Below are positions 26,052-53,390 of a DNA stretch of 64,000 nt, piece by piece (within the stretch, counting starts at the first letter, position 1; each line of letters opens with the position of its first letter). Both the position numbers and the translations under genes were made by a program. This DNA is from Epilithonimonas zeae (GTDB lineage Bacteria > Bacteroidota > Bacteroidia > Flavobacteriales > Weeksellaceae): positions 1 to 64,000 of the forward strand of contig NZ_FSRK01000001.1 in NCBI RefSeq assembly GCF_900141765.1, written 5' to 3'. The notes beneath the pieces are model-generated. The model worked only from the letters and a program-made list of their open reading frames with translations, did no database searches and had not been told where the DNA came from.

Positions 26052-27623
26052 TTGAATCGCTTTATCTTAATTTTCTTCGCTGCTTTTACTGCTTCGTTTT
26101 GGTTTGGTCAAAATCAAAATCAGGAAGACTTGGCTGGTTCAGAGACTTTGGATAAAAGTAAAATTTCGCCGGAACAAATCGTCGAGCAAAGTATCAAAAA
26201 GCTTGAACAACCAATTTCCGAAGAAGAAAAATATGAAGTTCGGATGAAAATGGCAGATGCTTATCTGAAAATAAAAAAACCAGATTTTGCAAAATCAACA
26301 GAGATGCTTTTCAAAGCGAAGGAAATTGCTGAGAAGTTGGATGATACCAAGTTGAAGGCAAAAATCTACGGTTCAATCGCCAATCAATATTCCTTTCTGA
26401 ATTTCCCTGAAAAAATAAAACCTTACCTCGACTTATCAAAACTAGAAGTTGATAAACTTCCGAATGGCTACGAAAAGAATTATCTGACGGCAAGATTGTA
26501 CATAGAATATGGAAATCTGGAAGCCGATAAAGAGAATTTTATTGTGGCGAGAAAAGATTATCAAAGAGCTTTGAAGTTTCTTGGAAATATAGGGAACCCC
26601 AATAAAAAAAATATTTTCCAATTTCGAAGAGCGTTTTATAATATGGGTGTTTCGTATGCTTATCTCAAACAAAATGATTCGGCGGAATATTTTCTTAACA
26701 AAGCTTTGGCAATCCATGATAATGAAAATAAAGAGTTTAAGTATTTTATCTACAATAATTTGGCTAAGGTTTATGCTGATAAAAATGAAAATCAGCGAGC
26801 AATCGATTCCTTGGAAGTTGTGTTGAAAGAAGATGCTTTCAAAGACAATAGATTGCGGGCTGATATGTACAAAAAGCTGATTGCTTCTTACAAAGCTTTG
26901 AATAATAAAGAAAAATACATCGAATATTCTGAGAAGCTTTTGGAACTGGAGTCTGATGTGAAGGATAATAATCTGAAAGCCATCAACACCGCAGTTTCTG
27001 AAGAGCAAAAAAATCTTTTGGAAAAGATATCCGATAAAGAAGGACATAATAATCTTTTACTAATCAGTTGTGGATTTTTGGTTGTCGTTGGAGGGATTTC
27101 TATTTTCTTCATCAATCAAAAAAGAAAGAAAGAGAAATTGATTTATCAGAATTTTATTTCGAATCTTGAAAAGCAGGAAGTAAAGGAAACTTCAGAACCG
27201 AAAGCAATTGTTCAGCCCGAAATTGAAGAAAAGGAAAAAGTTTCGTTTTCCGTTCCAAGTTCTGCAGAAACTATGATTCTCGATAAATTAGAAAAGTTTG
27301 AGGAATCTGCCAAGTTTACCAATTCCAAACTGACGGTTGCGAGTCTGGCGGTAATGTTCAAGACCAATCCAACTTATCTTTCCGAAACCATCAAGAAACA
27401 CAAAGAGAAAAACTTCAATAATTATCTGAACGAGCTTCGTATCAATTATATCTGCAAGCAGATTAACGAACGTCCGGAATTCCTTAATTACAAAATAAGT
27501 TATCTCGCAGAAGAAGCTGGTTTTTCTTCACATAGTTCCTTTACAACTGTTTTCAAAAACATAACCGGAATTTCTCCATCAGCTTTTTTGAGAGAAGCGG
27601 AGAAGAAACATAAAAATATTTAA
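26052..27623 (+). CDS. Membrane-bound TPR protein with a C-terminal AraC-type DNA-binding domain
   Basis: This 523-residue protein has an N-terminal signal or anchor (MNRFILIFFAAFTASFWFGQ), several tetratricopeptide repeats over about residues 50-330, one transmembrane helix near 337-357 (LLLISCGFLVVVGGISIFF), and a cytoplasmic AraC/XylS helix-turn-helix domain at about 410-520 (AEEAGFSSHSSFTTVFKNITGISPSAF). It probably senses something outside the cytoplasm through the TPR part and binds DNA inside. The start is read as TTG: no in-frame ATG precedes the signal peptide and a stop codon lies just upstream. The T9SS cargo gene 178 bases downstream is a possible target. The family is common in Chryseobacterium. 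Confidence 0.88.
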   Translation: MNRFILIFFAAFTASFWFGQNQNQEDLAGSETLDKSKISPEQIVEQSIKKLEQPISEEEKYEVRMKMADAYLKIKKPDFAKSTEMLFKAKEIAEKLDDTKLKAKIYGSIANQYSFLNFPEKIKPYLDLSKLEVDKLPNGYEKNYLTARLYIEYGNLEADKENFIVARKDYQRALKFLGNIGNPNKKNIFQFRRAFYNMGVSYAYLKQNDSAEYFLNKALAIHDNENKEFKYFIYNNLAKVYADKNENQRAIDSLEVVLKEDAFKDNRLRADMYKKLIASYKALNNKEKYIEYSEKLLELESDVKDNNLKAINTAVSEEQKNLLEKISDKEGHNNLLLISCGFLVVVGGISIFFINQKRKKEKLIYQNFISNLEKQEVKETSEPKAIVQPEIEEKEKVSFSVPSSAETMILDKLEKFEESAKFTNSKLTVASLAVMFKTNPTYLSETIKKHKEKNFNNYLNELRINYICKQINERPEFLNYKISYLAEEAGFSSHSSFTTVFKNITGISPSAFLREAEKKHKNI

Positions 27624-51885: not shown

Positions 51886-52350
51886 ATGAACTTTCTTAGG
51901 AATACATTAGGTGTTTTGGCTGGTCTTACGGTAGCCGCTCTCATTATCACACTTGGGGTAAAGATAGACTCCTCGTGGATCACCTATAAGCAGTTTGCAC
52001 CTTTTAGTCATTGGGAATTGCTCTTGCAGTCTGTCCAAGGCAAAGATTCTTTCTATATAGCACTGTTGTTTTTTGGTGGATTGGGCGTGACCTTCGGTGG
52101 AGTAGTAACCGCAATGATTGTGAAATATGCCAAAGTAGCTTATGCCATTTTGATAGGTTTTATCATGCTATTCATTGCGATGTTGGATATTATCATATAT
52201 CCTTACCATCCTGTCTTCTACAAGATATCCATCTTCCTGATTTTCTTCCCATTCTCGTGGATCGGCGGGAAAATAACAGAAGTCATCTCCAACAGACGGA
52301 AAAAAAGAGCCAAACAATTACAACTGAAAAATCAAAAACCACAAGCTTAA
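51886..52350 (+). CDS. Small multi-pass membrane protein, unknown function
   Basis: This 154-residue protein has four hydrophobic helices (about 7-25, 55-78, 83-102 and 105-127) and a basic tail (SNRRKKRAKQLQLKNQKPQA). I do not recognise the family. The ATG starts on the base after the ridA stop. Its stop codon lies in the loop of the terminator hairpin, so no other gene belongs to this transcript. Confidence 0.75.
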   Translation: MNFLRNTLGVLAGLTVAALIITLGVKIDSSWITYKQFAPFSHWELLLQSVQGKDSFYIALLFFGGLGVTFGGVVTAMIVKYAKVAYAILIGFIMLFIAMLDIIIYPYHPVFYKISIFLIFFPFSWIGGKITEVISNRRKKRAKQLQLKNQKPQA

Positions 52351-52366
52351 GTTTGTGGTTTTTTGT
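52334..52366 (+). terminator. Terminator of the ridA operon, overlapping the last codons
   Basis: An 11-bp stem (AAAAACCACAA at 52334-52344 with TTGTGGTTTTT at 52353-52363) holds the stop codon in its loop and runs into T6. Confidence 0.88.
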
Positions 52367-52452
52367 TTTAACTAATTTGCAGCTTGTTATTTAGACTGGT
52401 GTTAAAGCAACATAGCTGTTCATAATAATATCAACAAAATAAAGAAGCAGAG

Positions 52453-52788
52453 CTACAAACTATTAATAGAAATAGTTTTCTTACAATTGGCTAAAGTTCC
52501 GTAGGAGCGACCTGTTAAAAAAGTAGGAGAACCAAAAGAATTCATTGGTAAGCCTTTATCAATTATAGGATAGGTTAATAAAAAGATAACCAATCCTATA
52601 AATAGTGGAACCGATCCTGTGAAAATAGTAGGTTCGCTTAGCAAAATAATAGGCTCTCTTGCTAAATACTTAGCCGGGCCTACAAGAGTTATAAGCACGT
52701 CTTTCAAATTGGTACGCTAGCCTACTAAATCCATAGGCTCGCTTACTGAAATGATAGGCTTGCCTATAATATTCATAGGCGAACAGCT
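52453..52788 (-). repeat. Array of sixteen degenerate 21-bp units in exact phase
   Basis: The 336 bases divide into exactly 16 units of 21 bp with no insertions or deletions between units. Read on the minus strand the best-kept units approach GTAAGCGAGCCTATNATTTTA, with AGCCTAT as the core (plus-strand ATAGGCT). Outer units towards 52453 are more degenerate. In one minus frame the units translate as heptads like LSEPTIF, in another as FSKRAYG, but each of the three minus frames is broken by stops. The array lies between two terminators (52334-52366 and 52859-52888), so it does not seem to be part of a neighbouring message. Its function is unknown. Confidence 0.85.
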
Positions 52789-52858
52789 TTAAGTTGATTC
52801 CTAACCTGAAAGTTTCTCCAATATATATTCTAAGATGCTAATGTAAAGTAAATGCCAT

Positions 52859-52888
52859 AAAAAATCCGCCTTGAAAATTCAAAGCGGG
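52859..52888 (-). terminator. Terminator of the frameshifted gene
   Basis: On the minus strand CCGCTTTG pairs with CAAGGCGG (one G-T pair), with a 6-base loop, and is followed by T6. It lies about 22 bases after the restored stop at 52910. Confidence 0.8.
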
Positions 52889-52909: not shown

Positions 52910-53390
52910 CTATTCAGATGGTGGTGCGTCGGCTGTTTTACTTTTATTAGTAAATCGGCTATTCCAGCTATCCACATCGCGCATCGCAAGATCCAGCGCA
53001 GCATCATTTTCTCGGGAGAGTTGCAGGTTTTTTGTAACGGTCTGTAAGCGCCATTATATCTGCAGAAGCCCCTAGCTGAATCTCCTCAAAAGTTTCAAGA
53101 TTCTGCAGAATAGCTATTCTGCCCCCTTCCAGATTGCCGTAATAATCCAGCAGTGCAGCGAGTTCTTCGGGACTGTCGCTTCTGCCCAGAGCGTCAGGAA
53201 ATTGTGTGGCAATACGAGAGATTAGTCGTGCGTAGCCTTCTCTGCCCTCTGCCATTGTTCGCATGCCAGGTTTCTCGTCATCCGTAAGATTGATTTTGTA
53301 AGGATTAATTGGTGTAAGGGAACTAGTAATGGTTGCGGTGTAGGTATCCGTAACGGCTTTTGCCGGGATACTAAGAATAAATTTTCTCAT
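52910..53390 (-). pseudogene. Small conserved-looking protein gene, broken by a homopolymer frameshift
   Basis: The uninterrupted frame from the ATG at 53390 gives 128 residues and ends at 53004 with the odd tail KKPATLPRK. A run of six T (53028-53033; A on the coding strand) follows the codons for LTDRY. With five bases instead of six the frame continues as NLQLSRENDAALDLAMRDVD and ends with a terminal APPSE and a stop at 52910, giving about 159 residues. The restored tail has normal charge pattern and ends just before the terminator, which supports a real single-base insertion or a sequencing error. I do not recognise the protein; it has no signal peptide and is rich in helices (EELAALLDYYGNLEGGRIAI). 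Confidence 0.75.

Follow-up and report, generated by a model that had tools for sequence, protein, structure and literature searches.

A gene-linked array of phased 21-bp palindromes in Bacteroidota as putative DNA half of a two-part chromosomal module

In the stretch of DNA analysed here, comprising positions 1 to 64,000 of contig NZ_FSRK01000001.1 from Epilithonimonas zeae and referred to as the window, a region between two terminators holds a series of strongly diverged tandem repeats that have remained in exact 21-bp phase, which raises the question of what kind of element they constitute. The original prediction, derived for positions 52453-52788, offered two answers, namely a decayed gene of a heptad-repeat protein in which only the phase is left, or an array of sites serving a protein-binding or structural role on the DNA.

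Structure and extent of the array

The periodicity of the region is evident from its autocorrelation, where the fraction of matching bases between 52453 and 52788 amounts to 0.46 at a lag of 21 and to 0.48 at a lag of 63. In 2000 dinucleotide shuffles, the corresponding value at lag 21 is 0.27 ± 0.024 and the highest value found at any lag between 5 and 69 in any of the shuffles is 0.40, which confirms the expected peak. The array counts 13 units, each precisely 21 bp long (52516-52788, not assigned to either strand), which are composed of an imperfect 14-bp palindrome with the core RTAGGYNNRCYTAY, written out as RTAGGCNNGCYTAY, and a 7-bp A-rich spacer. When scored against the core, these units match at 9-14 of 14 positions, whereas the 'units' at 52453, 52474 and 52495 reach 7, 8 and 8, near the level of random 14-mers of the window (6.3 ± 1.5). 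Since these first three also fall into a dispersed REP-like repeat, the exact phase of the repeats stands and their proposed number of 16 is reduced to 13. The array is eroded, and Tandem Repeats Finder (TRF) detects its best-kept pieces only (52622-52668 and 52716-52780). The motif ATAGGCT, previously proposed as core, turned out to be one half of the palindrome. The palindrome itself had been missed, as had the gene linked to the array and the REP-like nature of the first part of the region.

The REP-like sequence at 52435-52524 on the plus strand is a decayed pair of dispersed repeats (core CTCCGTAGGAGCGACCTGTTAATAGAA) and not part of the array. When the region 52380-52860 was used as query against 59 genomes, 19 gave a match, 17 of which (all except G000, the genome of the window, and G005) match solely inside query positions 56-158. 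Repeats of this type are found throughout the genus (in the window, L004-L021 and L025), with arrays of ~51 bp in L025. The GTAGG of the decayed pair is located exactly 21 bp from the GTAGG of the first true unit. At two loci (L006 and L020), the gene beside the REP-like repeats presumably encodes a Y1-type transposase.

Both predicted terminators were recovered, one at 52334-52363 on the plus strand, which belongs to the convergent neighbour gene (51886-52350), and the second at 52866-52887 on the minus strand. The statement that the region contains no coding frame holds over the array as a whole; a single minus-strand ORF of 84 codons spans 52453-52707, and since the unit is palindromic, the peptide V-G-x-P-T is read on both strands. 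A CRISPR array was rejected, as units of 21 bp with a 7-bp A/T-rich spacer contrast with repeats of 24-48 bp separated by unique spacers. Searches of Rfam gave four sub-threshold matches at 52300-52392 and none over the array.

The minus-strand terminator separates the array from a gene on the same strand (53004-53390) for a ~160-aa protein, of which it encodes about the first 120 residues. Owing to a break in the frame towards the C-terminus, the rest of the protein is matched in another frame at 52919-53035 on the minus strand (profile positions 120-158, E 2.3e-11). The counterpart of this gene in G005 is unbroken and encodes 160 aa, and the corresponding array is 84% identical to that of the window, minus one whole unit and one further base. 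With its gene frameshifted and its array eroded, the copy in the window is thus probably decaying.

A gene family and its arrays in other genomes

Of 23 genomes from the genus, eight contain a DNA pattern of two neighbouring units with at most three mismatches, compared to two for a reversed control pattern. An exact and slightly wider pattern, run over 84,980 species, returned 16 stretches in nine genomes, all from Bacteroidota (Flavobacterium branchiophilum, F. aquariorum, Epilithonimonas mollis, Taibaiella soli and five metagenome-assembled genomes (MAGs)). At six array loci (the window, L050, L052, L064, L068 and L074), the adjoining gene belongs to one family of ~160-aa proteins and the array is always located 3' of it. 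Beside the gene-linked array of F. branchiophilum, a gene at 2503-3063 of L074 looks like a Cas4-type nuclease.

Among the nine genomes picked by the array pattern alone, seven hold the close-type gene and two, both MAGs, do not; as five of these seven had supplied seeds for profile A1, the independent cases are Taibaiella soli with three copies and a MAG of the Chitinophagales with four. A search led by the protein found G074 and G428, with an array 3' of the gene in both. Within the genus, profile A1 detects the close-type gene in 5 of 23 genomes and a remnant in a sixth (G008). Its weak matches in G010 and G016, which we take to be ribosomal protein L17, were dropped. In the set of 395 genomes of the order, the close-type gene is present in three (G000, G005 and G428), all of which are among the eight with the array pattern. 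Of the five other genomes with the pattern, G255 and G022 hold distant family members, and G018 and G268 contain single matches that may be due to chance, with no array found by TRF.

In 395 sampled genomes of the phylum, profile A2 (15 sequences) identifies family members in 16 and profile A4 (13 distant members) in 31, in both cases including the genome of the window. As the copy of the window is not reported by A4, the latter number counts this profile and not the whole family. Profile A4 also revealed two further family genes in the genome of the window (G000:C2:693462-693935, which is unbroken, and G000:C1:1773370-1773828). Profile comparison connects both halves of the family with a probability of 95.4 and an E-value of 2e-8.

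The family matches no established domain in the scans applied. Neither Pfam (eight members) nor NCBIfam (six members) gave a hit, and for the first two members scanned, no family of Pfam, NCBIfam or PHROGs claims them. A single member has a sub-threshold Pfam match to PF22738 (NACHT N-terminal helical domain 7, NNH7), scoring 17.9 bits where the cut-off is 27, as well as three weak matches in PHROGs, none of which claims it. In the same sets of members, there was no match to a ParB, ribbon-helix-helix or helix-turn-helix centromere-binding fold (Pfam and NCBIfam), to a Y1 (HUH) transposase (Pfam, eight members) or to a type III toxin family (Pfam, NCBIfam or PADLOC). Profile searches of the PDB returned alpha-actinin, occludin and others with a best E-value of 0.009, which look like generic helix matches, and AlphaFold2, run on the four rows of alignment A3, produced a poor model (pLDDT 42); the protein is predicted, at low confidence only, to be helical. 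Of 38 family proteins, 34 have a pI below 6, two are at 6.3 and two are basic. As regards a ParA, ParM or TubZ NTPase encoded nearby, BLAST comparison of the neighbours within flanks of ~1.5 kb defines syntenic groups and one upstream protein type recurring in six loci, with no partner common to all.

Outside of Bacteroidota, a homologue annotated as hypothetical protein (WP_100922920.1) is encoded on plasmid pTs417 of the gammaproteobacterium Ca. Thiodictyon syntrophicum (L133, 2914-3381), with 32% identity and an E-value of 2e-5. It has no clear array, since 9 of 100 shuffles reach its score, and a search with this protein as query returned its own record only. The other family members reside on chromosomal contigs. 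An origin from phage or plasmid was rejected, as the searches were empty save for this one plasmid homologue.

We quantified the association between gene and array in a blind scan for periods, in which the flanks of 68 gene copies (up to 700 bp on each side; the fragment L177 at a contig end was left out) were matched to themselves at lags of 10-49 and compared to 100 dinucleotide shuffles. On the 3' side, 48 of the 68 flanks are significant, with none of the 100 shuffles reaching their score. The best lag is 21 in 20 copies, 22 in one, 42 in 16, 43 in six and 44 in three, with lags of 20 and 24 found once each, and thus falls on 21, 22, 42, 43 or 44 in 46 of the 48. The third family gene of the genome of the window (L164) is significant, but at a lag of 24. 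The 5' side is significant in 14 copies, eight of them at the same set of lags, and in six of these eight (Chit1-4, L172 and L173) the signal reflects an array upstream of the gene. A phased array is therefore found within 700 bp of 52 of the 68 copies (46 on the 3' and six on the 5' side), and 16 fail. The 22 copies failing on the 3' side include the six with an upstream array, some whose array appears diverged by eye (e.g. L162) and others seemingly without array (L152, L153, L159, L163, L170 and the plasmid-borne L133).

A 3' array is found in 12 of 16 close copies, in 17 of 22 copies from profile A2 and in 17 of the remaining 30 (29 from profile A4 and one from tblastn). Since the close copies include seeds derived from arrays, they provide no test, and the result is carried by the other 52, of which 34 have the array on the 3' side. 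The 68 copies include near-duplicates (L115/L116, L131/L132, L157/L158, L147/L148 and L164/L166) and are thus not independent. By TRF, periods of 21-22 bp or multiples thereof are present in 14 of 22 distant loci and in none of 19 control loci, which are mostly REP-like loci of the genus and include one with a period-50 repeat. In a control within the window, three 3' flanks of 47 genes are significant, two of which are the two sides of the array described here; the third, a lag-43 signal at 27623, was rejected, as no array is discernible by eye. Wherever a close copy has its array on the 3' side (12 of 12 cases), an intrinsic terminator, identified by eye, separates gene and array.

From one family member to the next, the arrays differ in sequence, while the period of two (or four) helical turns is retained. 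Several related arrays alternate units of 21 and 22 bp. In L069 and L072, the extra base turns the palindrome into an odd one of 15 bp (GTAGGTAGTACCTAC in L072) and leaves the 7-bp spacer unchanged, and in T. soli it seemingly resides in the spacer. As this mixture breaks any reading frame, it is the palindrome and not a peptide that is kept. The flanks of distant members contain arrays of other palindromes, such as GACTGAAGTC, GGTGTTTAACACC, TACCCTCCGAGGGTA and GCGACTCCGAGTCGC, and another palindrome array (GAGTCTAGGAGACT) occurs in the genome of the window itself. Arrays of the TAGG type contain between 7 and 28 units. In Chit3 and Chit4 (L107 and L108), a near-perfect 21-bp array (GAAGTAGTTCAAAACATCAAA), which is not clearly palindromic, is located upstream of a divergent family gene. 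Variant arrays of ATAGGTGCTCCTAT in 21-bp steps were observed at two positions of G465, a genome of the same order (C1:176899-177038 and C7:82127-82246), for which a profile search found no A1-type gene. Downstream of the arrays of L119 and L130, both in G255, are paralogous genes with 69% identity over 120 aa, which by eye we take to encode helix-turn-helix regulators.

Genomes with the gene often hold additional arrays of the same type whose nearest ORFs include no family gene: E. mollis has three of them, F. branchiophilum two, G005, G011 and F. aquariorum one each and G428 one more. These extra arrays suggest an action in trans. In the genus, four genomes have a TAGG array and no close-type gene (G019, G021, G022 and G008, which retains the gene remnant). 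An array occupies one common spacer in five genomes (G005, G009, G011, G019 and G022), whose bounding genes presumably encode a thiolase and an MFS transporter.

Half-sites, cognate pairs and alternative explanations

Upon folding on their best period, 24 of 38 arrays show a palindromic consensus at p < 0.05. This includes 13 of 22 distant arrays, none of which was chosen by a DNA pattern; the other nine are not significantly palindromic and neither are the GAAGTAGTTCAAAACATCAAA units of Chit3 and Chit4. Within 27 TAGG-type arrays comprising 321 units, which had been selected by a consensus containing both arms, we find no positive covariation between the arms (p 0.29-1.0). An apparent covariation of pair 6-9 in the pooled arrays vanishes upon shuffling within arrays (201 observed versus 210.7 expected) and thus reflects a difference in composition between arrays, and at pairs 5-10 and 7-8 complementary combinations are fewer than in the shuffles. 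Mismatches of the G-T type do not outnumber those of the A-C type, either on the gene strand of nine gene-linked arrays (47 versus 44) or on the strand with the A-rich spacer of 29 arrays (159 versus 188). The arms in TAGG-type arrays thus behave as independent half-sites and not as paired stems.

These properties bear on the possibility that the array acts as RNA, either in the form of small hairpins in series, to which the family protein would bind as in a type III toxin-antitoxin pair, or as a 3' stabilizer of the transcript. Such a role, which we regard as unlikely, would account for the adjoining ~160-aa gene and for the four Chit copies with the array 5' of the gene, as is the case in type III systems. 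Hairpins of either RNA or single-stranded DNA predict both covariation and a G-T bias, whereas half-sites in a duplex predict neither, and the data thus argue against RNA hairpins. The preservation of the helical period of 21/22 bp despite changing sequence, the terminator between gene and array, the arrays elsewhere that have no neighbouring family gene, the array of the window being free of Rfam matches and the missing toxin family among the members scanned speak against it as well.

Similarly unlikely appears a role in the control of transcription, in which a bank of operators would titrate the family protein or regulate nearby genes. The dyad sites are of operator size and arrays without adjoining family gene could define a regulon. 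However, the arrays are mostly located 3' of genes and, of the 22 array loci for which both neighbours were called, L073 alone is placed between divergent genes; the neighbours of the family gene are, syntenic groups aside, not conserved across species.

The proposal that the palindromes are mobile or selfish, with the family protein spreading or amplifying the array as in REP sequences and their RAYT transposases, would be compatible with a gene accompanied by linked and unlinked palindromes and with its patchy distribution. A turnover of units is apparent in L050 and L051, where higher-order repeats of 63 bp, equivalent to three units, are found within 21-bp arrays as trace of unit duplication. 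Yet, no transposase family was matched by eight members in Pfam, the palindromes form phased arrays instead of dispersed singles, and the persistence of an array in one common spacer across five genomes is at odds with mobility, so that we consider this proposal quite improbable.

Neutral satellite DNA generated by slippage, with a gene adjoining by accident, would explain the visible duplication of units and the loss of one whole unit in G005, but is very hard to reconcile with the 46 of 68 gene copies that agree in both the set of periods and the side of their array and with the control genes of the window, which do not. Finally, the decayed heptad-repeat gene, although 21 bp equal seven codons and an ORF of 70-160 codons overlaps the array at 13 of 25 loci, is refuted by the frame-breaking 22-bp units in otherwise well-kept arrays. 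The related copies, which were proposed to be checked for open frames, also speak against it, as at 12 of the 25 loci they contain no ORF of at least 70 codons over the array and at the other 13 contain them on either strand, and so does the palindrome itself, since four of the six frames are free of a fixed stop when its codons alone are considered.

Protein identity correlates with array similarity (Mantel rho 0.27, p ≤ 0.0005), as calculated over 50 of the 68 copies; the remaining 18 were set aside for want of a clear array or because their protein is shorter than 120 aa. On average, array similarity reaches 0.17 at protein identities below 25%, 0.37 at 50-70% and 0.70 above 90%, the last from two pairs. 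Joint vertical descent of gene and array would be expected to explain part of this correlation. For 15 pairs within the same genome with less than 45% protein identity, the array similarity averages 0.21 (0.00 to 0.42) compared to a background of 0.17, with the highest value (0.42, at 17% protein identity) found for L167/L173. Array decay revealed no clear difference between genomes with and without the gene: of six positions, on average 3.3 are paired in the window and 3.4 and 3.5 in G005 with its unbroken gene, compared to 3.4-4.2 in G008, G019, G021 and G022 and the same range in G009 and G011.

A putative two-part module and its relation to known systems

Our results are best explained by a two-part module, with the array as DNA half and the gene at 53004-53390 on the minus strand as protein half, in which the family protein, or a partner, would bind to the phased palindromes in a centromere- or iteron-like manner. 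We assign to this reading a probability of about 0.6. It corresponds to the second of the two initial proposals, the putative protein-binding or structural array, which gains support from the linkage to a protein family and from the tests against hairpin pairing. From the observed linkage, period, symmetry and arm independence, we infer the identity of the binder, its assembly and its role in the cell. Each palindrome would be occupied by a dimer, either of the family protein itself or of a partner that it needs. With about ten sites in a row, all located on one face of the helix, the bound dimers might form a nucleoprotein filament or cluster, which could mark, anchor or condense its part of the chromosome. 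The most likely role would thus be that of a structural or anchoring chromosomal site, like a centromere or an array of iterons, and the module may possibly be kept by selfish co-evolution. The arrays without a nearby family gene would constitute further sites for one protein. In view of the acidic pI and the missing DNA-binding domain, the binder might be another protein and, considering also the poor structural model, the family protein may act together with a partner.

A gene-linked array of 21-bp palindromes in Bacteroidota is not described in the parts of the open full-text literature consulted, which contain nothing similar, in agreement with the initial statement that no described element fits. 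The consulted part of the survey 'Satellites in the prokaryote world' (PMC6749651) lists a satellite family of Flavobacterium psychrophilum and holds nothing on a gene-linked array. A small gene of unknown family that is usually found beside its own array suggests an undescribed module, through which protein and DNA would form a structure of a new kind on the bacterial chromosome. We consider it an even bet that the module represents a widespread new class in Bacteroidota, consisting of a ~160-aa helical protein and a cognate array of about ten palindromes at a spacing of two helical turns, whose fast-diversifying sites, fixed spacing and non-cross-reacting pairs within a genome would be as expected for a centromere-like or selfish satellite system. 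The family, which profile A4 detects in 31 of the 395 phylum genomes, would gain a first functional handle in form of a likely DNA target beside the gene. As the arrays vary in sequence and keep their period, a new code of DNA recognition could be learned from the natural protein-array pairs, which are already at hand, and those pairs that are orthogonal could be used to tag chromosomes. Should the module be centromere- or satellite-like, it would become testable whether rapidly evolving binding arrays, comparable to the satellite DNA of eukaryotes, exist on bacterial chromosomes.

Several known systems share features with the proposed module. Type III toxin-antitoxin systems likewise combine the gene of a small protein with an adjoining repeat array and a terminator, but in the module the order is usually reversed, the repeat is shorter, no toxin family is matched and there is no sign of RNA pairing. 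In enterobacteria, MatP, a protein of similar size, carries a ribbon-helix-helix fold and acts on matS, chromosomal palindromes that are likewise similar in size to those found here. The matS sites occur singly, at scattered positions of the terminus, instead of being arranged in tandem, and the family described here matches no known domain.

The REP/RAYT (TnpA-REP) systems contain palindromic intergenic repeats, some with a GTAG tag (PMC3733652, as far as consulted). They resemble the module in that palindromic intergenic repeats reside in cis and trans of one gene. In contrast, the family protein shows no transposase domain, its sites form phased 21-bp arrays compared to dispersed units of 20-40 bp, and the unit is not tied to GTAG.

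The closest correspondence is found in the centromeres of plasmids, where a small protein gene is similarly located beside a tandem array of short sites. The period of sopC is 43 bp, and some of the arrays described here have periods of 42-44 bp. According to the consulted part of a published account (PMC5016525), plasmid centromeres such as sopC of F, parC of R1 and pSK41, parS of pSM19035 and tubC consist of tandem short sites, some of them inverted repeats, that bind protein dimers in register. As in the partition systems of the ParABS types I-III, centromere-like tandem repeats accompany the gene (on the 3' side in 46 of 68 copies and on the 5' side in six), with the family protein as putative binder. 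The module differs from these systems in residing on chromosomes, save for one plasmid homologue, in showing no match to ParB, ribbon-helix-helix or helix-turn-helix proteins, in having no neighbour family shared across all species and in the location of the array, which is usually found 3' past the terminator of the gene and not upstream of an operon. Even with none of their defining families matched, the module would thus work most like the plasmid centromeres and their binding proteins.
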